NCBI RefSeq assembly: GCF_025909975.1
Contig: NZ_JAPCIO010000001.1
Location: 1-64,000, forward strand
Origin: Flavobacterium lacisediminis
GTDB taxonomy: Bacteria > Bacteroidota > Bacteroidia > Flavobacteriales > Flavobacteriaceae
DNA: 64,000 nucleotides
Direction: 5' to 3'
In this document: positions 5,499 to 52,425 of the stretch, one piece after another
How positions within the stretch are numbered: the first letter of the stretch is position 1
Layout of the letters: each line of letters starts with the position of its first letter
Made by a program: the position numbers and the translations under genes
Notes under the pieces: generated by a model
What the model saw: only the letters and a program-made list of their open reading frames with translations
What the model was told of the DNA's origin: nothing
The model's database searches: none

Positions 5499-5876
5499 TT
5501 AGAAAGGTAAATCGTCGTGTTCTTCTTCTTTAAAGTTAGTTGCTGGTTCAAATGCTTCAGATGCAGGCATTGGAGGCATTTGCGGTGCACTTGGAGCTTC
5601 TGCTTGTACTTTTTCAATTCTCCAACCTTGGATAGAGTTAAAAAATTTAGTTTCTCCTTGTGGATTTACCCATTCTCTTCCTCTTAAATTGATAGAAACT
5701 TTTACTTGTTCTCCAACATTATAATTGTTTAACAAATCTGTTTTGTCTTGTGCAAACTCAATCAAAATGTGTTGAGGATATTGCTCTTCTGTAGTCACTA
5801 CAAGTTCTCTTTTTTTGAAAGAAGCACTTACTTGTTGTACAGGATTAATTAATTTTACTCTTCCTAAAACTTCCAT
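5499..5876 (-). CDS. DUF3127 domain-containing protein
   Basis: The 125-residue product is counted from the ATG at 5876, giving 'MEVLGRVKLINPVQQVS'. An upstream in-frame start at 5915 would overlap the preceding gene and adds a residue stretch atypical of the family. The body ('KRELVVTTEEQYPQHILIEF', 'VKVSINLRGREW') is a small beta-barrel predicted to have an OB-like fold. The tail is acidic and proline-rich and ends 'EEEHDDLPF', like the acidic tip of single-stranded-DNA-binding proteins. DUF3127 is common in Bacteroidota and without assigned function; nucleic-acid binding is inferred from the tail only. Confidence 0.88.
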   Translation of the reverse strand: MEVLGRVKLINPVQQVSASFKKRELVVTTEEQYPQHILIEFAQDKTDLLNNYNVGEQVKVSINLRGREWVNPQGETKFFNSIQGWRIEKVQAEAPSAPQMPPMPASEAFEPATNFKEEEHDDLPF

Positions 5877-5887
5877 AATACTTAAAT

Positions 5888-6763
5888 TTATTTTTTTGCT
5901 AATAACAATTTCCAAGCATCAATAGCTCTTCCATTATCTACATACTCTTTTGCTTTTTGAAATTTTGTATCCATATCATCGGCACTTAAAACCGCTTTTA
6001 CTTCAAAATTTTCTTTTACAAATATAGCAATTTCTTCTTCGGTTGGAATATTTTCTATGTTACCTAATTTTCCTAAATCATTCCCTGTAAAATAGCCACT
6101 TTCTTTGATGAAATCAGGAATCATATCTACCCCAATTCCTAAAGTTGTCAATGGTTTTTCAACCTCAAACATACCTACATTAGAACGGCTGTACCAATTG
6201 CCACCCATTCTGGCAACCAAATCAATTTTATGTTGGTCAATCATTCCTGTTGCATCCAAAACGGCTTCATTGATGTGAATTTTTACCACTTCACAAATTA
6301 CTAAATTTCCAGCACCACCTTGGTCGCCTAAAGCAATCACTTCGTTAATTTTACATTCAAATTGCACCGGACTTTCAGCTACACGAAATGGTTTTACTTT
6401 GTCTGATTTTAGCATCGTAAATCCTGCTTTTTCAAACTCATTAACTCCATCTGGATATTCGGTACTTGATAACGACATTTGTTGTACGATATCATAATTC
6501 ACTACATTAATTACAACTTCTTTAGTGGTTTGAGCGTTGATTAATGTATGTTTTGTAGTATTATCACGAACCCTTCTTGCTGGCGAAAAAATCAAAATCG
6601 GTGGATTAGAACTAAACACATTAAAGAAACTAAAGGGCGATAAATTTGGATTTCCATTACTATCTATAGTACTTGCAAAAGCTATAGGTCTTGGCGCTAC
6701 GGCACTTTGTAAATATCCTTGTAATTTTGCTGGCGCTATTTCTTTTGGATCGATGCTTAACAT
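5888..6763 (-). CDS. Flavin reductase-like domain protein
   Basis: This is a 291-residue protein of the flavin reductase/flavoredoxin family, predicted to bind FMN and to use NAD(P)H or act as an electron-transfer flavoprotein. The FMN-binding core shows 'APRPIAFASTID', 'NLSPFSFFNVFSSNPP' and 'TKEVVINVV'. An all-helical C-terminal extension (about 205-291) follows. The ATG at 6763 (MLSIDPKEIAP) is preferred over a start 33 nt upstream. It lies directly upstream of the DUF3127 gene and is probably cotranscribed. The substrate is unknown. Confidence 0.85.
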   Translation of the reverse strand: MLSIDPKEIAPAKLQGYLQSAVAPRPIAFASTIDSNGNPNLSPFSFFNVFSSNPPILIFSPARRVRDNTTKHTLINAQTTKEVVINVVNYDIVQQMSLSSTEYPDGVNEFEKAGFTMLKSDKVKPFRVAESPVQFECKINEVIALGDQGGAGNLVICEVVKIHINEAVLDATGMIDQHKIDLVARMGGNWYSRSNVGMFEVEKPLTTLGIGVDMIPDFIKESGYFTGNDLGKLGNIENIPTEEEIAIFVKENFEVKAVLSADDMDTKFQKAKEYVDNGRAIDAWKLLLAKK

Positions 6764-45539: not shown

Positions 45540-46322
45540 ATGAATATTCAAACCATAAACCAATCGATTCAAAGTCAGAAAGAACAATTATTAAATCATT
45601 CGTTATACAATAAAGTAAAAACGATTGACGATTTACATTGCTTTTTAGAAAATCACATTTATGCGGTTTGGGATTTTATGTCGTTATTAAAAGCCTTGCA
45701 GAATAAATTAACCTGTACTACAACTCCTTGGTTACCTATTGGAAATCCAGAAATTCGTTATTTAATTAACGAGATAGTTGTAGCAGAAGAAACCGATTTA
45801 ACATTGGACGGAACTCGTCAAAGTCATTTTGAAATGTATTTAGATGCGATGACACAATGTGGTGCTTCAACTACTCAAATTAATGCGTTTTTGAAGAATG
45901 TGGAAGAAACAAAAAACATTTTTGTATCGATAAAACAAAGTGATTTACATCCGAATGTGAAAGCGTTTTTGGATTTTACTTTTAGAGTAATTGAACAAGG
46001 AAAACCACATGAAATTGCAGCAGCTTTTACTTTTGGAAGAGAAGATTTGATTCCGAATATGTTTACCGAAATCTTGAAAAACTTTCAGCAAAATTTCCCA
46101 GAAACGGATTTATCAAAACTAATTTATTATTTCGAAAGACATATTGAATTAGATGCCGATGAACACGGACCAATGGCAATGCAAATGATTGCAGAACTTT
46201 GTGGCGATTCAGAACTAAAATGGAAAGAAGTAGAAGAAGTTTCAGTTTTAGCTTTAGAAAAGAGAATCGGACTTTGGAATGCCATTGAAGAGCAAGTGGA
46301 ATTGAAACATGAATTAGTTTAG
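45540..46322 (+). CDS. DUF3050 domain-containing protein
   Basis: The 260-residue, mostly helical protein has 'HCFLENHIYAVWDFMSLLKA' (about 28-47), 'NEIVVAEETDL' and 'YYFERHIELDADEHGPMAMQ' (about 197-216). The His/Glu clusters suggest a heme-oxygenase-like helical bundle that could hold a di-metal site. The family has no established reaction. It is convergent with the polyamine-type operon, the two stops being adjacent. Confidence 0.88.
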   Translation: MNIQTINQSIQSQKEQLLNHSLYNKVKTIDDLHCFLENHIYAVWDFMSLLKALQNKLTCTTTPWLPIGNPEIRYLINEIVVAEETDLTLDGTRQSHFEMYLDAMTQCGASTTQINAFLKNVEETKNIFVSIKQSDLHPNVKAFLDFTFRVIEQGKPHEIAAAFTFGREDLIPNMFTEILKNFQQNFPETDLSKLIYYFERHIELDADEHGPMAMQMIAELCGDSELKWKEVEEVSVLALEKRIGLWNAIEEQVELKHELV

Positions 46323-46323
46323 T

Positions 46324-47340
46324 TTATTTGTTGTTTTTCCAAATAAAACCATCTAATAGATAATGTGTAAATTGTGGAACTGTAAGCAATGGAACCAAAA
46401 TAAATTGCCATTTAAAAGGATCTATTCCAATGTTGAAATTTTCGTTCCAAACAAAAATTTCCCACAAATATTCTTCGGTGAAAGCTATTCCAATTAGGAT
46501 TAAAACAAAGAAAATAACTCCTTTGCTGTTTTTAAAATGAAATAATTCGCCCATTTCTTCTTTAGGTTTTGAATCAATTTCTTTTAAATATATTAATGCC
46601 ATGTAAGGAATACCGTGAGAAACCACGTTTAAAAGTGTGAAAACTAAATCATTATTAAAATATACTATTCCAAAAAACCATGATAGTAAAGTCCCAATAA
46701 TTATCAGGTTTTTTGGAATATTAAAATAGCTTGTTTTCAAATAAATATAAAGTGTTCGACATAAATAATATGCCACAACAAGAACATAAATTACAGTTGA
46801 AACTTGAATTAAAAACTGGCTTTCGTATCTTAAAAACTCTTTTTCTACAAACCAATTAAAAGCTCTTGGCGAAGAAAAAAACCAATACAACATTGGATAA
46901 ATGGTTGCTGTGTAGATTATTAATGCATCTGAATATCGGTTGATTTTTGATTTTTCTTCCTTTCTTGCATACAACCTAACAAACCCATATTGCTGTCTAA
47001 TAAAATGAAAAACAGCTACATAAGCTAAAACTGACCAAAAAACAGAACTCCCAAAACCAAATAAAAATAAACCTATTAAAAAACAAATTATTGGCAATCC
47101 AATGTACAGTTTTTTTCTCCTTTGAAATTCTGATTTTACAAAGTAGGTTTTGAAAAGAGTTGCATAAACGTGCGCCACATCAATAAAAACAATCAAAAAC
47201 AACCAAGTATAAAAGGAGTAATCTTCTTGAATTTGCGATAACCAATTCTGAAAAACAAATACAATTCCCAAAACAAAAAATGCTGGAAAAAGTATCAACC
47301 AAAAATCGGTTTTTGATTTATGAATCCAAGGTTGTTCCAT
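46324..47340 (-). CDS. Polytopic membrane protein with conserved His, end of polyamine-type operon
   Basis: The 338-residue protein has eight to nine predicted transmembrane helices. Histidines recur at membrane boundaries: 'VFIDVAHVYATLFKTYF', 'VFHFIRQQYGFVRLY', 'NVVSHGIPYMALIYL' and 'VPQFTHYLLDGFIWK'. This pattern is reminiscent of membrane metal-dependent oxygenases or desaturases, but I do not recognise a named family. It overlaps the FAD oxidoreductase stop by 23 bp, so it is translationally coupled and very likely works with that enzyme. It is the last of seven genes. Confidence 0.8.
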   Translation of the reverse strand: MEQPWIHKSKTDFWLILFPAFFVLGIVFVFQNWLSQIQEDYSFYTWLFLIVFIDVAHVYATLFKTYFVKSEFQRRKKLYIGLPIICFLIGLFLFGFGSSVFWSVLAYVAVFHFIRQQYGFVRLYARKEEKSKINRYSDALIIYTATIYPMLYWFFSSPRAFNWFVEKEFLRYESQFLIQVSTVIYVLVVAYYLCRTLYIYLKTSYFNIPKNLIIIGTLLSWFFGIVYFNNDLVFTLLNVVSHGIPYMALIYLKEIDSKPKEEMGELFHFKNSKGVIFFVLILIGIAFTEEYLWEIFVWNENFNIGIDPFKWQFILVPLLTVPQFTHYLLDGFIWKNNK

Positions 47341-48949
47341 CTACAATATTATTAACTACATTAATTCCTTGATGAAAAGCTTCTTCAAAAATAGAAATTC
47401 CAGCTAAATCGCTGTGGGCGAAAAAGATTTTATTTTCAATACTTTTTGATGCTTCATTGAGTGATTTACTTTTTAGAAAATTTGGAACAGGACTTATCAT
47501 TCCGTGACCAATTCTGTGAATTTCAATCGCGCTTATATATTTATCAATATCAGGATGTGCTATTTTTAAATCAGACAATACTAACTCTTTCCAATGTTCA
47601 ATTGGTTTTTTTAGCAACTCTTTTCTGTCTTTCTTTATATCATTTGAACTAAAGCTGTAATAATACGTAATGACCTTTTTATCAATTATTTGCTCCAAAT
47701 TTTGATGCTGATTATAAACGTATCCAAGACCATTTGCTTTGTAAATTACATTATCCCAAGACAACGGAAAACTACCATTATCTGGAATATCAGATAATGT
47801 GATGGAAGCCGTAAACCAAGGAGCATAATGAAAATTATTTGCCGTATTCTTTCTTTCCGAAACCAAATACTTTGTGATATATTGTGGTGTGGCAAGAATT
47901 ACTTTTTCGGCTAAAATAGTTATTGATTCATTAGATTTAGCATTAAAAACTAACACATTAACCCCATTTGAATTAAGTTGGATATCATATACTAAATGAT
48001 TTTTCAATACTTTATTTTCAACAGCTGATTTTAAATGTTTTACCAATCTACCATTCCCTTCTGGCCAGGTTAAAACCGTATCGTCATATTTGTTGTTCTC
48101 GTGTTTCCTTGCGGCAAAATAATGAATCCCAGCCCAAGCCGAAACAAATTCAATTCCTAATCCAAAATCATCTTTACAACAATAATCTACGTATTCTAAA
48201 ATTTCTTCAGCAGTGAAATTGTTGTCCAACAACCATTTTTTCATAGTTATTTCATCCAATGAATTTAAAGATTCATCTGTTGAACAGAATGATTTTGGTA
48301 TATCAAAAAAGTACTTTCCATCTTTACCTTTATTCTCCCGAAATTCAGTCATTTTTTGAAGAAATAAATCCATTTGATTATCAGCTTCTTTAGAATTTCC
48401 ATATCTCGGGATTAAATCCGTTTGCCAAGAATTACGAATAAATAAACGTTCGTTTGGATCAAAACACAATTGCGTTTCATCAAAAACAGGTAAATTATCT
48501 TTGTAATCTACTATGATTTTTGATTCTTCTAAAAAGTTTAAAAGTTCTTTATCTCTTACATTAGGTAAAGGCAAATAATGTGCTGCTAAAGGGAATTTAG
48601 AATACTGATTTTCACCATTTGCAGAATTTCCGCCTAATTTATTTTCTAATTCTAAAACTAAAAAATCTTCAATTCCTCTTCTCTTGAATTGTCGCGCTGC
48701 AGAAAGTCCGGAAATTCCACCACCGACAATTAAATATGGTATTTTAATTTCATTAGTTGGTTTTGGAAAGTTCTTCAACCATAAACGATGTCCTAAAATA
48801 TTATTGGTTCCTGTAAGTTTTAATGTAATTTCAATTAATTTGTCTTTACAAGAAACCAACAAACTAGGCACGGCAGCAATAATAGATAAAGCCGCTAATT
48901 TTTTTATGAAAGTTCTTCGTGAATTATAATTTTCCCCACTCTTCATCAA
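47318..48949 (-). CDS. Exported FAD-dependent amine-oxidase-like oxidoreductase (Tat signal)
   Basis: The 543-residue flavoprotein has a twin-arginine-type signal ('NSRRTFIKKLAALSIIA') ending in a lipobox-like 'LLVSCKDK', so a folded, FAD-loaded protein is likely exported and possibly lipid-anchored. The FAD Rossmann motif is 'YLIVGGGISGLSAARQF' (about 72-88) with 'LVLELENKLGGNSANG'. A late 'KVILATPQYITKY' segment is typical of the amine oxidase/protoporphyrinogen oxidase fold. In an operon with SpeD and SpeE homologues, oxidation of a polyamine or polyamine conjugate is a reasonable inference. It overlaps speE by 26 bp. Confidence 0.85.
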   Translation of the reverse strand: MMKSGENYNSRRTFIKKLAALSIIAAVPSLLVSCKDKLIEITLKLTGTNNILGHRLWLKNFPKPTNEIKIPYLIVGGGISGLSAARQFKRRGIEDFLVLELENKLGGNSANGENQYSKFPLAAHYLPLPNVRDKELLNFLEESKIIVDYKDNLPVFDETQLCFDPNERLFIRNSWQTDLIPRYGNSKEADNQMDLFLQKMTEFRENKGKDGKYFFDIPKSFCSTDESLNSLDEITMKKWLLDNNFTAEEILEYVDYCCKDDFGLGIEFVSAWAGIHYFAARKHENNKYDDTVLTWPEGNGRLVKHLKSAVENKVLKNHLVYDIQLNSNGVNVLVFNAKSNESITILAEKVILATPQYITKYLVSERKNTANNFHYAPWFTASITLSDIPDNGSFPLSWDNVIYKANGLGYVYNQHQNLEQIIDKKVITYYYSFSSNDIKKDRKELLKKPIEHWKELVLSDLKIAHPDIDKYISAIEIHRIGHGMISPVPNFLKSKSLNEASKSIENKIFFAHSDLAGISIFEEAFHQGINVVNNIVDGTTLDS

Positions 48950-50438
48950 AATAGCGTACTAAAATTTGGTTATCTAATCGATTTACTTCAACATTACTTG
49001 CCTTCATATCACTAGTAAATTGATTCAGTGTATTGTATTTATAATTATAAAATCGAAGATTTTCAACTTTTCTATTTACTATATTAAAATCAAAACTCGG
49101 ATTGTTTGAAGTTATGGTAAAACCCCATTCGCCAAAAGATGGTACATAAACATGATAAGCATCTGTATTAGAAAAAGAAGTTTTTACAGTTTTATTGATA
49201 CACCAAAATGATTTAGGTGCGAAATAAGGCGAAGTTGTTTGAATAACCACAACTGCATTTGGTGCTAAAATTTTAGAAAGCGATTGATAAAAATTAACCG
49301 AATATAATTTCCCTAAACTATAATTGGAAGGGTCAGGAAAATCTATGATAACCACATTATATTTTTTTTGAGCTTCTTTAACCCAAAGAAATGCATCTTG
49401 GTTAAAAACGCTTAGTTTCTTATTCTCAAAGGAATTATTATTCAAACTTTTTAGTACTGGATTTGTTGTAAATAACTTCGTCATTCCTCCATCTAAATCT
49501 ACTAACGTAATTTTTTTTACGGCATCGTACTTTAAAATTTCTCTAACTGCTAAACCATCACCACCACCAAGAACTAAAACTTCATCCACAGCATTTGCGC
49601 TTGACATAGCTGGATGGACTAATGCTTCGTGATAACGATATTCGTCGGCTGAGCTGAATTGTAAATTGTTATTCAAATACAATTTATAATCATTTTTTAA
49701 ATGCGTCAACACGATTCGTTGATAAGAAGTAGTTTTTGTAAAAACGATATTTTCACCATATAATTTCTCTTCTGAAAAAGAGAGAATTTTTTCAGAAAAA
49801 ATAAAAAAGCCAACTAAAATTAGAAAAGAGATTATCGCTTTAGCTTTCAAAAAATACACTTTCTTGATTTCTTTTTCCAATATAAAACAAAGTGCAATAG
49901 CAACACTTAGATTAATCATTCCAAAAAACAAGGAAGTTCTAATAATTCCTAATTGCGGAATAAAAACCAAAGGAAACAATACTGAAGCAAGCAAAGCACC
50001 AATATAATCAAACGTAAAAACATTAGAAACCAAATCACTAAACTTAACCTTGTCTTTTAGAATATTCATTAAAAGCGGAATTTCTAATCCGACTAAACAA
50101 CCTGTAATGAATACTAAAAAATAAAGTATGAACTGAAAATAGGCTACTTTTTCAAAAAGTAAGAATAATATAACCGAACTTAATCCGCCAATAATTCCAA
50201 CCACAATTTCAATTTCTATAAACGTGTTTAGTTGATTTCTTTTGATAAATTTTGCAAAATAAGATCCTATTCCCATAGAAAATAAGTATACTCCTATGAT
50301 GAATGAAAATTGCTTTACAGAATCTCCTAAAAGATAACTCGCTAACGTTCCCGCGACTAATTCATAGATTAAGCCACAAGTTGCGATAACAAAAACTGCA
50401 AATAATAATAGGTATTCAAACCTAAAAAATTTACCCAT
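48924..50438 (-). CDS. Membrane-fused polyamine aminopropyltransferase (SpeE-like)
   Basis: The 504-residue protein has seven N-terminal transmembrane helices (about 8-220, 'GLIYELVAGTLASYLLGDSV', 'GLEIPLLMNILKDK') fused to a spermidine-synthase-like Rossmann domain (about 225-504). The domain holds 'EVLVLGGGDGLAVREILK', 'LVDLDGGMTKLF' and 'VVIIDFPDPSNYSLGKLYS' (catalytic Asp region). It should transfer an aminopropyl group from decarboxylated SAM, made by the upstream SpeD, to an amine acceptor at the membrane. It overlaps DUF350 by 8 bp. Confidence 0.93.
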   Translation of the reverse strand: MGKFFRFEYLLLFAVFVIATCGLIYELVAGTLASYLLGDSVKQFSFIIGVYLFSMGIGSYFAKFIKRNQLNTFIEIEIVVGIIGGLSSVILFLLFEKVAYFQFILYFLVFITGCLVGLEIPLLMNILKDKVKFSDLVSNVFTFDYIGALLASVLFPLVFIPQLGIIRTSLFFGMINLSVAIALCFILEKEIKKVYFLKAKAIISFLILVGFFIFSEKILSFSEEKLYGENIVFTKTTSYQRIVLTHLKNDYKLYLNNNLQFSSADEYRYHEALVHPAMSSANAVDEVLVLGGGDGLAVREILKYDAVKKITLVDLDGGMTKLFTTNPVLKSLNNNSFENKKLSVFNQDAFLWVKEAQKKYNVVIIDFPDPSNYSLGKLYSVNFYQSLSKILAPNAVVVIQTTSPYFAPKSFWCINKTVKTSFSNTDAYHVYVPSFGEWGFTITSNNPSFDFNIVNRKVENLRFYNYKYNTLNQFTSDMKASNVEVNRLDNQILVRYFDEEWGKL

Positions 50439-50646
50439 GAATTGCTGCGCTAATAATAAGAGAAATTCCGATAATTAATGCTGCAAAAACAATAGCTAAT
50501 GCTGTGTTTTTATTTTGAACAATTTCTTTCCAAGTATTTTCAGGCGTTATTTTTTCAATTATATAATAACTTATAATTAAAACTACAACCCCAATCACTG
50601 AAAAAATTAACGCATTTACTATGCCTTTTAATGCAATATATTCCAT
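50431..50646 (-). CDS. DUF350 (YjfL-type) small membrane protein
   Basis: The 71-residue protein has two transmembrane helices (about 8-30 and 47-68) with the DUF350 features 'SYYIIEKITPENTWKEI' and 'NTALAIVFAALIIGISLII'. It is a single-unit version; many relatives carry two units. DUF350 proteins are repeatedly found with ATP-grasp amidoligases, PspA-like proteins, AdoMet decarboxylase and spermidine synthase. The role is undefined. Confidence 0.92.
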   Translation of the reverse strand: MEYIALKGIVNALIFSVIGVVVLIISYYIIEKITPENTWKEIVQNKNTALAIVFAALIIGISLIISAAIHG

Positions 50647-50652
50647 ATTAAA

Positions 50653-50829
50653 TTATTTATGATAAAATCTATTTACTGTGCTGTACCCTCTAGAACCGAC
50701 TGAATTTGACTTTTCAGTAGATTCGCAATCGCAAATTCTACTTCCGGTAAAGGAATAACCTAAAAACAATGTGTAGACTAAAAGTCCAAATACAATTGCC
50801 CATTTATTATTAATGATAAACTGCTTCAT
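50653..50829 (-). CDS. Small Cys-containing single-TM protein in polyamine-type operon
   Basis: The 58-residue product is counted from the ATG at 50829 (MKQFIINNKWAIVFG), which removes the overlap with the DUF4178 gene. One transmembrane helix (about 8-27) is followed by an exposed tail with 'GSRICDCEST' (Cys-x-Cys) and 'VGSRGYSTVNRFYHK'. The tail has no catalytic motif. In this context it could be a structural partner or a substrate for polyamine attachment; that is speculation. I know no named family. Confidence 0.75.
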   Translation of the reverse strand: MKQFIINNKWAIVFGLLVYTLFLGYSFTGSRICDCESTEKSNSVGSRGYSTVNRFYHK

Positions 50830-50833
50830 ATTA

Positions 50834-52060
50834 CTACTCGGTGTAAGGTGTAAAATCACTATTCTCCCATCTTCTTTGTTCGAAGTTTTTCTTTAAAAAG
50901 AAAATTATTGCAAAAATCCCACCCAGAAAAACTAAACTTAACATAAAATTCCAAACCGATGATTCATTCCAAACTGCTTTTATATTCATGGTTTGATTAG
51001 AAGTGTCCGTATCTTGTTTTGAAGGTATTATTACCAAGTGATATTTTCCTTGTGCCACACCACAAAAATTAAAGGTTGTACTTGTACTTCCTTCTGTCCA
51101 ACTTTCTCCATCGGTATAACCACTGTAATACTCAATATCTTTTTGAGCGTATTCTTCTTCATTTGTAGCTTCATTAACTAATGAAACTTGTGCATTTGCC
51201 CATGAATTGTTAACATCTGAACTAGCTGAAACAACCAAAGGAGCAGGGCTTCCTTTCAAATCAAATGAAGACGAAATGAATTCCTTATTTTTATATTCAT
51301 CAAAATTTAATGACGTATACAATACGTTTTTCTCTGTTCTACCCATATTAAAAAAGATATAGGTAGCTAAAATTAATATAGCAAATGATATAAAAACAAG
51401 AAGGGTGTTAAAGATATTAAATAAAAATGGCTGAACGAGTCCTACTCCAGATTTAGATGGAAGTTGACTAACATTAAATATTTTTTTTACTTCACTTGAA
51501 GAAATATGCTTTCCTAAATAAGTTGTATCATCATTATCAAATTCTTCGATAGAAATTATAAATGGTGGATTAATATATTCTACCATTTTTACTGGCCTAC
51601 CACTTATTTCAAACTCATAAAAACCATAGATTCTTGCAATGAAAGTATCTGTATATTCATAAAGATTATATGATATTTCTTTGTGTGTGAGTTTCTTGTA
51701 TTTACGTGATACATCATACGATTCTGGAACTTCTTCTAATAAAATCCAATGTCCGTCAGTTTCAGAAAGATATTTTACTTTGCCCGATTTTGACATTAAA
51801 GTATATTCACGCCAATAATATATGGCATGAGCTTTTTTAATGATTAATCCAACTATTTCATAGGTTTCTCCATCAATTATTCCTTTTGTCCCGATTTTTA
51901 GAATGGTATCTTTTGGAGAATAATCGTATGCTTTTTCGAATTTTAACTTCGAATTATTATAGGTAAAAAAACTATTACAATGAGAACAACCAAAGCTTTT
52001 TACTTCAAAACTTGATTCAATAGCAGTATTTTGATTGCATTTAGGACAAGTTAACTCCAT
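50834..52060 (-). CDS. DUF4178 domain-containing protein with N-terminal zinc ribbon
   Basis: The 408-residue protein opens with a zinc ribbon (two CPxC-type knuckles, 'CPKCNQNT' and 'CSHCNSFF', residues 4-35). DUF4178 domains follow (about 45-200: 'LKIGTKGIIDGETYEIVGLI', 'YYWREYTLMSKSGKVKYLSE'). A TM helix (about 232-252) and a beta-rich region ('GSTSTTFNFCGVAQGKYHLV') lead to a final TM helix (about 370-390). DUF4178 proteins co-occur with DUF350 and AdoMet decarboxylase in other bacteria. Biochemical role is unknown. The start is 2 nt after the speD stop. Confidence 0.9.
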   Translation of the reverse strand: MELTCPKCNQNTAIESSFEVKSFGCSHCNSFFTYNNSKLKFEKAYDYSPKDTILKIGTKGIIDGETYEIVGLIIKKAHAIYYWREYTLMSKSGKVKYLSETDGHWILLEEVPESYDVSRKYKKLTHKEISYNLYEYTDTFIARIYGFYEFEISGRPVKMVEYINPPFIISIEEFDNDDTTYLGKHISSSEVKKIFNVSQLPSKSGVGLVQPFLFNIFNTLLVFISFAILILATYIFFNMGRTEKNVLYTSLNFDEYKNKEFISSSFDLKGSPAPLVVSASSDVNNSWANAQVSLVNEATNEEEYAQKDIEYYSGYTDGESWTEGSTSTTFNFCGVAQGKYHLVIIPSKQDTDTSNQTMNIKAVWNESSVWNFMLSLVFLGGIFAIIFFLKKNFEQRRWENSDFTPYTE

Positions 52061-52062
52061 AT

Positions 52063-52425
52063 TTATCTTTCAACTTCTATTTGTTTAACAATATTTGCTT
52101 CAAAATAAGCTATAAAATCTTTTGCAATACTTCTAACTTTATTAGAATTATCTTGAGAATAATTACAAAGATAAACATCCATAGTTAACGTATTAATTTC
52201 TGGCCAGGTATGGATACAAATATGAGATTCTTTTAAACAATAAGCAATCGTAAAACTCCCGTTTTCGAAAACAAAAGAAGTATTTCCTACTTTTTCTAAT
52301 TGATTTTCAACCAGAAGATTGTCGGTAAAAGACACAAAACCTAATAAATCTATTAATTTATTACTATTTGAAACTTCGAGCGTTAATAATTGATGTAATC
52401 CTAAAAGATTGCTTTGTTTTTCCAT
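52063..52425 (-). CDS. speD: S-adenosylmethionine decarboxylase proenzyme (prokaryotic class 1B)
   Basis: The 120-residue pyruvoyl enzyme supplies decarboxylated SAM as aminopropyl donor. The self-cleavage site is Glu-Ser in 'CLKESHICIHTWPEINTL' (about 64-81), where Ser becomes the pyruvoyl group; His residues and Glu of the active site are kept. 'TMDVYLCNYSQ' follows as usual. It is the first gene of the seven-gene operon. No canonical TAnnTTTG lies in the 84-nt leader; AACATTTG near 52480-52473 is the closest. Confidence 0.93.
   Translation of the reverse strand: MEKQSNLLGLHQLLTLEVSNSNKLIDLLGFVSFTDNLLVENQLEKVGNTSFVFENGSFTIAYCLKESHICIHTWPEINTLTMDVYLCNYSQDNSNKVRSIAKDFIAYFEANIVKQIEVER

Follow-up and report, generated by a model that had tools for sequence, protein, structure and literature searches.

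Related systems and the operon under study

Modules made of the S-adenosylmethionine (AdoMet) decarboxylase SpeD and of a spermidine synthase (SpeE, or SpdSyn) fused to a membrane domain are said to occur in thousands, the two genes being linked. In the work of Li 2019 (Biochem J) they were reportedly proposed to act outside bulk polyamine supply, and such SpeE fusions reportedly failed to complement a spermidine synthase mutant. We describe here a seven-gene operon of this kind in Flavobacterium lacisediminis, lying at 46324–52425 of a stretch of 64,000 nucleotides (positions 1–64,000 of contig NZ_JAPCIO010000001.1, assembly GCF_025909975.1; hereafter, the window). Its core of SpeD, DUF4178, DUF350 and membrane-fused SpeE is an already known module; the operon also holds a small membrane protein, a flavin adenine dinucleotide (FAD) enzyme and a ten-helix membrane protein. 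What can be read from the sequence is the operon and its conservation, an SpdH-type FAD enzyme with an export signal, and an invariant lysine (Lys) at the end of the small protein. On this basis we tentatively propose that the C-terminal lysine would be aminopropylated at the membrane by means of decarboxylated AdoMet, and the product then oxidised by a putative flavoheme enzyme, both the acceptor and the chemistry being putative.

As far as the accessible portions of Ravi 2024 (PMC11237479) describe it, the PspA-CesT/Tir group 2 has in common with the operon a seven-helix SpeE fusion, DUF350, DUF4178 and an adjacent membrane-anchored protein. In the window, on the contrary, a helix-plus-tail protein of 58 amino acids (aa) replaces the lipoprotein, DUF350 is half-size, and an SpdH-type enzyme and the ten-helix protein are added. 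Neither PspA nor an ATP-grasp protein, as the first-pass annotation had remarked, nor a CesT/Tir gene was found among the seven genes and the three neighbours scanned, while PspA and CesT/Tir are both present in the sister locus L131, where the PspA-type operon comprises CesT/Tir, PspA, DUF4178, a lipoprotein, a large DUF350 and SpeE. A band-7/SHOCT variant, combining AdoMet decarboxylase with a polyamine oxidase, also appears in those portions of Ravi 2024 (PMC11237479); it resembles the window operon in having an oxidase in a DUF350-type operon and differs from it by the band-7 protein. Such a protein was found with SpeE and an oxidase both in L121 and in the Novosphingobium plasmid operon L223. 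Because of the band-7 variants in Ravi 2024, the link to an oxidase is already known in outline, what is new being the SpdH-type identity of the enzyme and the Bacteroidota form.

The PspA and CesT/Tir or band-7/SHOCT proteins of sister operons would speak for an envelope-stress sensor, in which the tail protein and DUF350 would sense polyamine or membrane state and the enzymes would tune the signal with no stable product. We regard this as very improbable for the window operon, where the seven genes and the three scanned neighbours include no PspA, chaperone or regulator and where several proteins have an enzyme-type conservation that favours a modification pathway.

The seven genes are consecutive on the minus strand, from 52425 down to 46324, with all open reading frames (ORFs) confirmed over their span and the order conserved across Bacteroidota, in agreement with the single tight unit initially proposed. 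Matches to Pfam/NCBIfam families were obtained for AdoMet_dc (8.4e-16), DUF4178 (3.5e-11), DUF350 (2.3e-14), Spermine_synth (1.8e-39) and Amino_oxidase (2.7e-12) and, with the fused seven-helix SpeE, they bear out the membrane-coupled SpeD/SpeE module first annotated. SpeD and DUF4178 are separated by 2 nucleotides (nt), DUF4178 and the ATG of the small protein by 4 nt, and the latter gene and DUF350 by 6 nt; the ends of DUF350 and SpeE overlap by 8 nt, those of SpeE and the FAD gene by 26 (TTG start) or 23 nt (ATG start), and those of the FAD gene and the last gene by 23 nt. The tight packing and overlapping ends first described thus stand, with gaps of at most 6 nt, and a 26-nt overlap of DUF4178 with the small gene arises only with an upstream GTG start.

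A C-terminal lysine beside the SpeE fusion

The candidate acceptor and the putative transferase are encoded as follows (window coordinates):

50653..50829, minus strand: small single-helix membrane protein, 58 aa from ATG, with a flexible tail ending FYHK (recognised by its HK end and charge pattern)
50656..50667, minus strand: codons of the Phe-Tyr-His-Lys C-terminus, of which His-Lys is the invariant part
48924..50438, minus strand: SpeE fusion, 504 aa, with a seven-helix membrane domain and an aminopropyltransferase domain (NCBIfam PRK03612, 642 bits)

Conservation was followed in 61 genomes of the genus and in 395 genomes of the phylum, each sample including the window's own genome, and in 80 named loci, all from Bacteroidota by their record titles. 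The latter, the best 80 among 420 confirmed FAD-family relatives, are biased towards the query, the two genome samples being fairer. For the phylum sample the cut-offs were an E-value of 1e-30 or better for SpeE, 1e-10 for the FAD gene and 1e-80 or better for close homologs of the last gene.

No Pfam/NCBIfam match was obtained for the small protein. Between DUF4178 and SpeE, exactly one frame ending in His-Lys, mostly as Phe-Tyr-His-Lys, was found in 77 of 77 evaluable loci, three of the 80 (L138, L193 and L213) not being evaluable; 70 of these tails passed the hydropathy limit, and the remaining ones (L144, L154, L162, L172, L183, L200 and L209) scored lower but end in His-Lys. Other frames in the same gaps (n = 289) end in Lys in 8 cases and in His-Lys in none, the corresponding figures for 888 background ORFs being 137 and 1. 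The Cys-x-Cys motif, to which the first-pass annotation had drawn attention, is present in the window protein and in 30 of 40 aligned homologs and absent from the other 10; it is the C-terminal His-Lys that is invariant instead, and Cys-x-Cys as the substrate is ruled out by its lack of conservation.

The His-Lys tail is also kept in operons without the FAD and last genes (L049, L123 and L124), which rules out a tail serving only as partner of the FAD enzyme, and it recurs in L119, L048, L121 and L122, the host family of the last two being, we presume, Chlorobia. In the phylum sample a Lys-ended anchored protein lies beside SpeE in 25 of the 29 genomes with SpeE, ending in HK in 17 and in GK in 8. 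A lipoprotein ending in GK occurs in L126 and L131–L136, the tail in L131–L136 being rich in Ser, Arg and Gly, and in L125 a DUF4178-type protein (5760–6464) with a hydrophobic segment and an RGFGK tail apparently substitutes for the separate tail protein. An Alteromonas plasmid encodes a lipoprotein ending SSGK, and small anchored proteins on other plasmids end in SGK (Ensifer), RVK (Tritonibacter), HGK (Gemmatirosa) and SHK (Novosphingobium). Since different anchors carry the same Lys end, these data suggest that the C-terminal end, rather than the anchor, is the functional part. No such C-terminal Lys tail was found in the open-access literature searched, whose coverage was partial, or by a term search of the accessible portions of PMC11237479, which is no proof of its absence.

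In Escherichia coli K-12, DUF350 (YjfL) adjoins YjfM and YjfC; YjfM has a GG end, and so has YgiB, the neighbour of YgiC, both YjfC and YgiC being named peptide--spermidine ligases in the record. There, as here, a polyamine enzyme (YjfL-linked in the case of YjfC) stands beside an anchored protein with a Gly/Ser/Arg-rich tail, with the difference that the tails beside the ligases end in GG, a C-terminal carboxylate being needed, whereas the operon tail ends in K, a transferase needing an amine. Ligases of the glutathionylspermidine-synthetase type use a free C-terminal carboxylate, which in glutathione is that of Gly; aminopropyltransferases use an amine, and lysine offers one at the end of an aminobutyl side chain that resembles putrescine. 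From this established chemistry we infer that the two kinds of tail, GG and K, may fit the two kinds of enzyme, ligase and transferase. The product on the tail would resemble the hypusine of eIF5A in carrying an aminoalkyl group on a lysine side chain, and would differ from it in that the group is a three-carbon aminopropyl from decarboxylated AdoMet, placed on the C-terminal Lys of a membrane protein.

The same evidence bears on a second explanation, possible although somewhat unlikely in our judgement, in which the aminopropyl group goes onto a small molecule or the headgroup of a lipid, the protein with the Lys tail serves for docking or as a structural subunit, and the FAD enzyme oxidises the product at the outer face. 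SpeE is indeed fused to seven helices, the DUF350, DUF4178, tail and last proteins have membrane segments, a structural role would likewise conserve a C-terminus, and aminopropylation of other substrates is mentioned in the accessible portions of Ravi 2024 (PMC11237479). It would leave unexplained, however, why a Lys end is found on anchors as varied as a small helix protein, lipoproteins and a DUF4178 fusion, and why GG ends, which fit chemically, stand next to the ATP-grasp spermidine ligases.

SpeE fusion and membrane topology

The catalytic domain of SpeE matches spermidine synthase 1iy9 at 1.6e-30, with GGGDG, DFPDP and other motifs conserved, and is fused to a multi-helix membrane domain; a seven-helix domain is described as well in the accessible portions of Ravi 2024 (PMC11237479). 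In 78 of 78 homologs, counts of Lys and Arg around the seven hydrophobic segments (means 9.6 versus 3.2) placed the N-terminus inside and the catalytic domain outside, and the charge pattern of the small protein was N-in/C-out in 40 of 40. Given these charge patterns and the export signal of the FAD enzyme, the tail, the SpeE catalytic domain and the FAD enzyme are predicted to lie on one side of the membrane. With the SpeE domain outside, decarboxylated AdoMet, made in the cytoplasm, must therefore cross the membrane. Four acidic residues of SpeE (E26, E77, E119 and D144) are conserved in or beside helices and could, speculatively, serve this passage.

The FAD enzyme

47318..48949, minus strand: SpdH-type FAD/heme amine dehydrogenase, putative lipoprotein of the twin-arginine translocation (Tat) route, 543 aa (export motif, fold and profile comparison)
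48788..48790, minus strand: codon of His54, predicted to bind heme b (the counterpart of SpdH His54 when residues are counted along the alignment; H in 46/46)
47504..47506, minus strand: codon of His482, predicted second heme b ligand (aligned with His562 of SpdH; H in 46/46)

The Tat export signal first annotated for this enzyme was found throughout its family, an RR or RK-x-F motif being present in 78 of 78 full-length homologs (a count made without three short frames, one in L138 and two in L182). A Cys follows the hydrophobic stretch in 75 of the 78, as in a Tat-exported lipoprotein. The initial description as amine-oxidase-like agrees with the Amino_oxidase match and could be sharpened to SpdH-like. 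The predicted model, with a predicted local distance difference test (pLDDT) score of 87, had SpdH of Pseudomonas aeruginosa (7d9i) at Foldseek rank 1, at 8.7e-24. VIA-align scored putrescine oxidase (Z 29.2) above SpdH (Z 26.0), the alignment with SpdH being longer and including the N-terminal part (model 42–535 on SpdH 39–619). A profile of the N-terminal part of the family returned SpdH as top match (0.0018), and hhalign against four SpdH homologs gave a probability of 99.1 over 520 columns, consistent with an amine-oxidase fold that includes the SpdH N-terminal region.

Compared with P. aeruginosa SpdH (7d9f–7d9j), the enzyme shares the RR-x-F N-terminus, the amine-oxidase fold and both heme b histidines, and differs in its length (543 versus 620 residues), its lipobox-type Cys, the replacement of Tyr443 and its fixed operon with SpeE. 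In SpdH, heme b is bound via His54 and His562, and FAD passes its electrons to the heme, according to the accessible portions of PMC12564564. The NRxxHGYA- or RWxHGYA-type histidine of SpdH homologs, equivalent to His562 by residue count, aligns with the invariant His482, as placed by profile and multiple alignment. Both His54 and His482 are conserved throughout: in 46 of 46 members of the family, in four members from outside Bacteroidota and in four SpdH homologs. With both ligand positions kept, the FAD enzyme is probably a flavoheme enzyme.

Distribution and linkage

In the genus sample the SpeE fusion was found in 14 genomes (no match in 47 of 61), and the FAD gene and the last gene each in 13. 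These are the same 13 genomes, all with SpeE and with the genes adjoining and ordered, as expected for the co-inherited unit suggested at first pass; the 14th genome with SpeE (G040) has the SpeD-to-SpeE core only. In the phylum sample 29 genomes have SpeE, 15 the FAD gene and 11 a close homolog of the last gene. The FAD gene lies downstream of SpeE, on the same strand and within 0.7 kb, in 15 of 15, and the close homologs directly follow the FAD gene in 11 of 11, so that the unlinked FAD and last genes which the first-pass annotation had named as counter-evidence were not encountered at this level of similarity; 4 of the 15 FAD operons are without the last gene.

Among the 80 loci, FAD follows SpeE in 79, the remaining locus being near a contig edge. 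The last gene was found in 72; of the other eight loci, at least one (L167) stops less than 1 kb past the FAD gene. The complete seven-gene order was recovered in 31 loci, and in a further 22 minus a detected small gene; the FAD protein of the window comes nearest to that of Flavobacterium cheniae (L214, 96% identity), followed by that of F. celericrescens (L186, 92%). The association of these genes is far beyond chance.

SpeE is also paired with the FAD gene on plasmids of Novosphingobium, Gemmatirosa and Burkholderia, in whose SpeE and FAD operons the last gene was not detected. The match in Rhodovulum (L229) is a 234-aa SpeE-domain protein only. Further plasmid matches came from Burkholderia cenocepacia, B. 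arboris and Novosphingobium resinovorum, and from a second record each of Tritonibacter and Alteromonas. In the Solitalea locus (L154, 4570–12677) DUF4178 and DUF350 are both duplicated within the operon.

Proposed pathway and points of weight

In the pathway that we tentatively propose, SpeD, to judge from its invariant catalytic residues, would decarboxylate AdoMet, and the SpeE fusion would transfer the aminopropyl group to a membrane-bound acceptor rather than to free putrescine for bulk polyamines. The likeliest acceptor would be the C-terminal Lys side chain of the small tail protein, giving a putative N-epsilon-(3-aminopropyl)lysine, a hypusine-like residue, on a membrane platform that DUF350, DUF4178 and the tail protein may form, as their co-occurrence suggests. 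On the outer face, the Tat-exported, lipid-anchored flavoheme dehydrogenase would act on the modified amine by oxidation, trimming it or converting it to an aldehyde, and electrons would leave via the predicted heme b. The ten-helix protein may be the membrane partner, for example the electron acceptor; this is the weakest step and draws on linkage and on invariant membrane histidines.

A broader form of the proposal, which we consider doubtful, would see in these systems an extracytoplasmic hypusine-like mark: decarboxylated AdoMet would pass through the seven-helix domain of SpeE onto tail lysines held by lineage-specific anchors, and the flavoheme dehydrogenase, in Bacteroidota and some others, would then erase the mark or make a cross-linking aldehyde.

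Ordinary polyamine metabolism, with SpeD and SpeE making spermidine from putrescine and the SpdH-like enzyme degrading it outside the membrane, is in our view improbable. The catalytic motifs of SpeD and SpeE are intact, the FAD enzyme is SpdH-like and the genome yielded no nspC-type carboxynorspermidine decarboxylase, all of which would suit it. On the other side, the SpeE fusion is unmatched in the 47 genomes of the genus mentioned above, an operon that both makes spermidine and destroys it looks futile, and this reading does not account for DUF350, DUF4178 and the tail. Moreover, a deoxyhypusine-synthase-type gene is present elsewhere in the genome, and homologs of this family can make homospermidine (PMC10407285, accessible portions). 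Because of that gene, and of the fact that the sole SpeD of the genome lies in this operon, a SpeD/SpeE role outside bulk polyamine supply would fit, without being proven.

Several observations weigh against the proposed modification of the tail lysine. No Lys tail was found near SpeE in 4 of the 29 genomes with SpeE in the phylum sample (L127, L128, L129 and L130) or in Burkholderia (L225), and a conserved C-terminus can equally be a docking or structural feature. The topology derives from counts of charge and hydropathy in which the helix borders were drawn manually rather than by a trained predictor. We know of no precedent for decarboxylated AdoMet crossing a membrane, as a SpeE domain outside would entail, and a SpeE domain inside would be out of reach of an outside tail. 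With regard to the FAD enzyme, the fold alone does not single out SpdH, because the VIA-align score is higher for putrescine oxidase, and SpdH was not recovered by a profile built on the C-terminal part of the family alone. At the position of SpdH Tyr443, which is altered in PDB entry 7d9j and is not taken here as family-defining, there is mostly V, L or I, and T in the window, and the acid aligned with SpdH Asp282 is invariant in the FAD family and variable in SpdH homologs. Owing to these two positions, the substrate may be an amine other than free spermidine, or the activity a different one. Finally, with nspC not found in the genome, a second route to spermidine is not demonstrable.

Other proteins of the operon and its neighbours

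52063..52425, minus strand: SpeD, S-adenosylmethionine decarboxylase proenzyme, 120 aa (Pfam AdoMet_dc, 8.4e-16)
50834..52060, minus strand: DUF4178 protein, 408 aa; CxxC pairs near the N-terminus and, in the C-terminal half, two hydrophobic segments (Pfam, 3.5e-11)
50431..50646, minus strand: DUF350 half-size membrane protein, 71 aa, ending IHG (Pfam DUF350, 2.3e-14)
46324..47340, minus strand: ten-helix membrane protein, 338 aa, unnamed family (48-sequence alignment; model pLDDT 87)

SpeD is the only AdoMet_dc match in the genome. Its residues F53, E66-S67, H72 and E76 are invariant in 72 of 72 aligned sequences and include the Glu-Ser cleavage site, which we take to be E66-S67 by Thermotoga maritima numbering, and the active-site His of AdoMet decarboxylase; position C87 is C in 27 and S in 45 of the 72. 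The C-terminal residue of SpeD is Arg in 72 of 72 homologs from the 80 loci and not so in the SpeD of Novosphingobium and Alteromonas. DUF4178 was detected in 77 of the 80 related loci. DUF350, detected in 66 of them and thus not universal, ends in HG in 59 of 67 homologs and in HS in 5, a C-terminal His thus recurring in a second small protein of the operon. In L155, L157, L158, L159, L167, L168, L171, L197 and L209, where no DUF350 was detected, the gap between DUF4178 and SpeE measures 176–251 nt and the His-Lys tail protein is kept.

The last protein, whose ten helices were counted by eye on the predicted model, has four invariant histidines (His57, His112, His242 and His326) in four even-numbered helices near mid-depth, in the 48-sequence alignment, together with further invariant Asp, Glu, Gln and Arg. 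No Pfam/NCBIfam match over the cut-off, no match to PDB sequences and no outstanding fold match were obtained, which is no proof of a new fold; the fold matches that did appear were weak and mixed helical bundles (best VIA-align Z 6.7, rhodopsin-type; Foldseek E 0.63) and were not interpreted. Its function next to the flavoheme enzyme might, as a guess, involve redox chemistry or a metal. Among the loci examined, the ten-helix gene occurs only in Bacteroidota.

Remote homologs (27–36% identity) are encoded in 11 genomes of the phylum sample, none of them among the 29 with SpeE. The linkage of the last gene proposed at first pass accordingly holds for its close homologs, but not for these remote ones, nor for one decayed remnant with in-frame stops (G420; L081, 7073–7389) in a genome without a SpeE-fusion match, which looks like operon loss. 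The remote homologs outside the operon (L082, L084, L086, L089 and others) measure about 355–440 aa. Five that were scanned gave no Pfam/NCBIfam match over the cut-off, and no shared theme was seen among the neighbours of L082, L084, L085, L086 and L089, in a survey of the eleven remote homologs that left out G068.

Directly adjoining the downstream end of the operon, and converging on it, is a DUF3050 gene (45540–46322, 348 bits) with a weak heme-oxygenase-like match; upstream of the operon lies a gene with a weak 2Fe-2S ferredoxin match.

Implications

For modules of SpeD and membrane-fused SpeE, a C-terminal lysine carried by differing membrane-anchored partners is a concrete and cheap candidate for the acceptor. 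Taken together, the K and GG ends suggest one rule, by which DUF350 systems would attach polyamine groups to membrane-anchored proteins at the C-terminus. A flavoheme enzyme tied to such a module would be a new route by which the cell surface could gain or lose a charged or reactive group.

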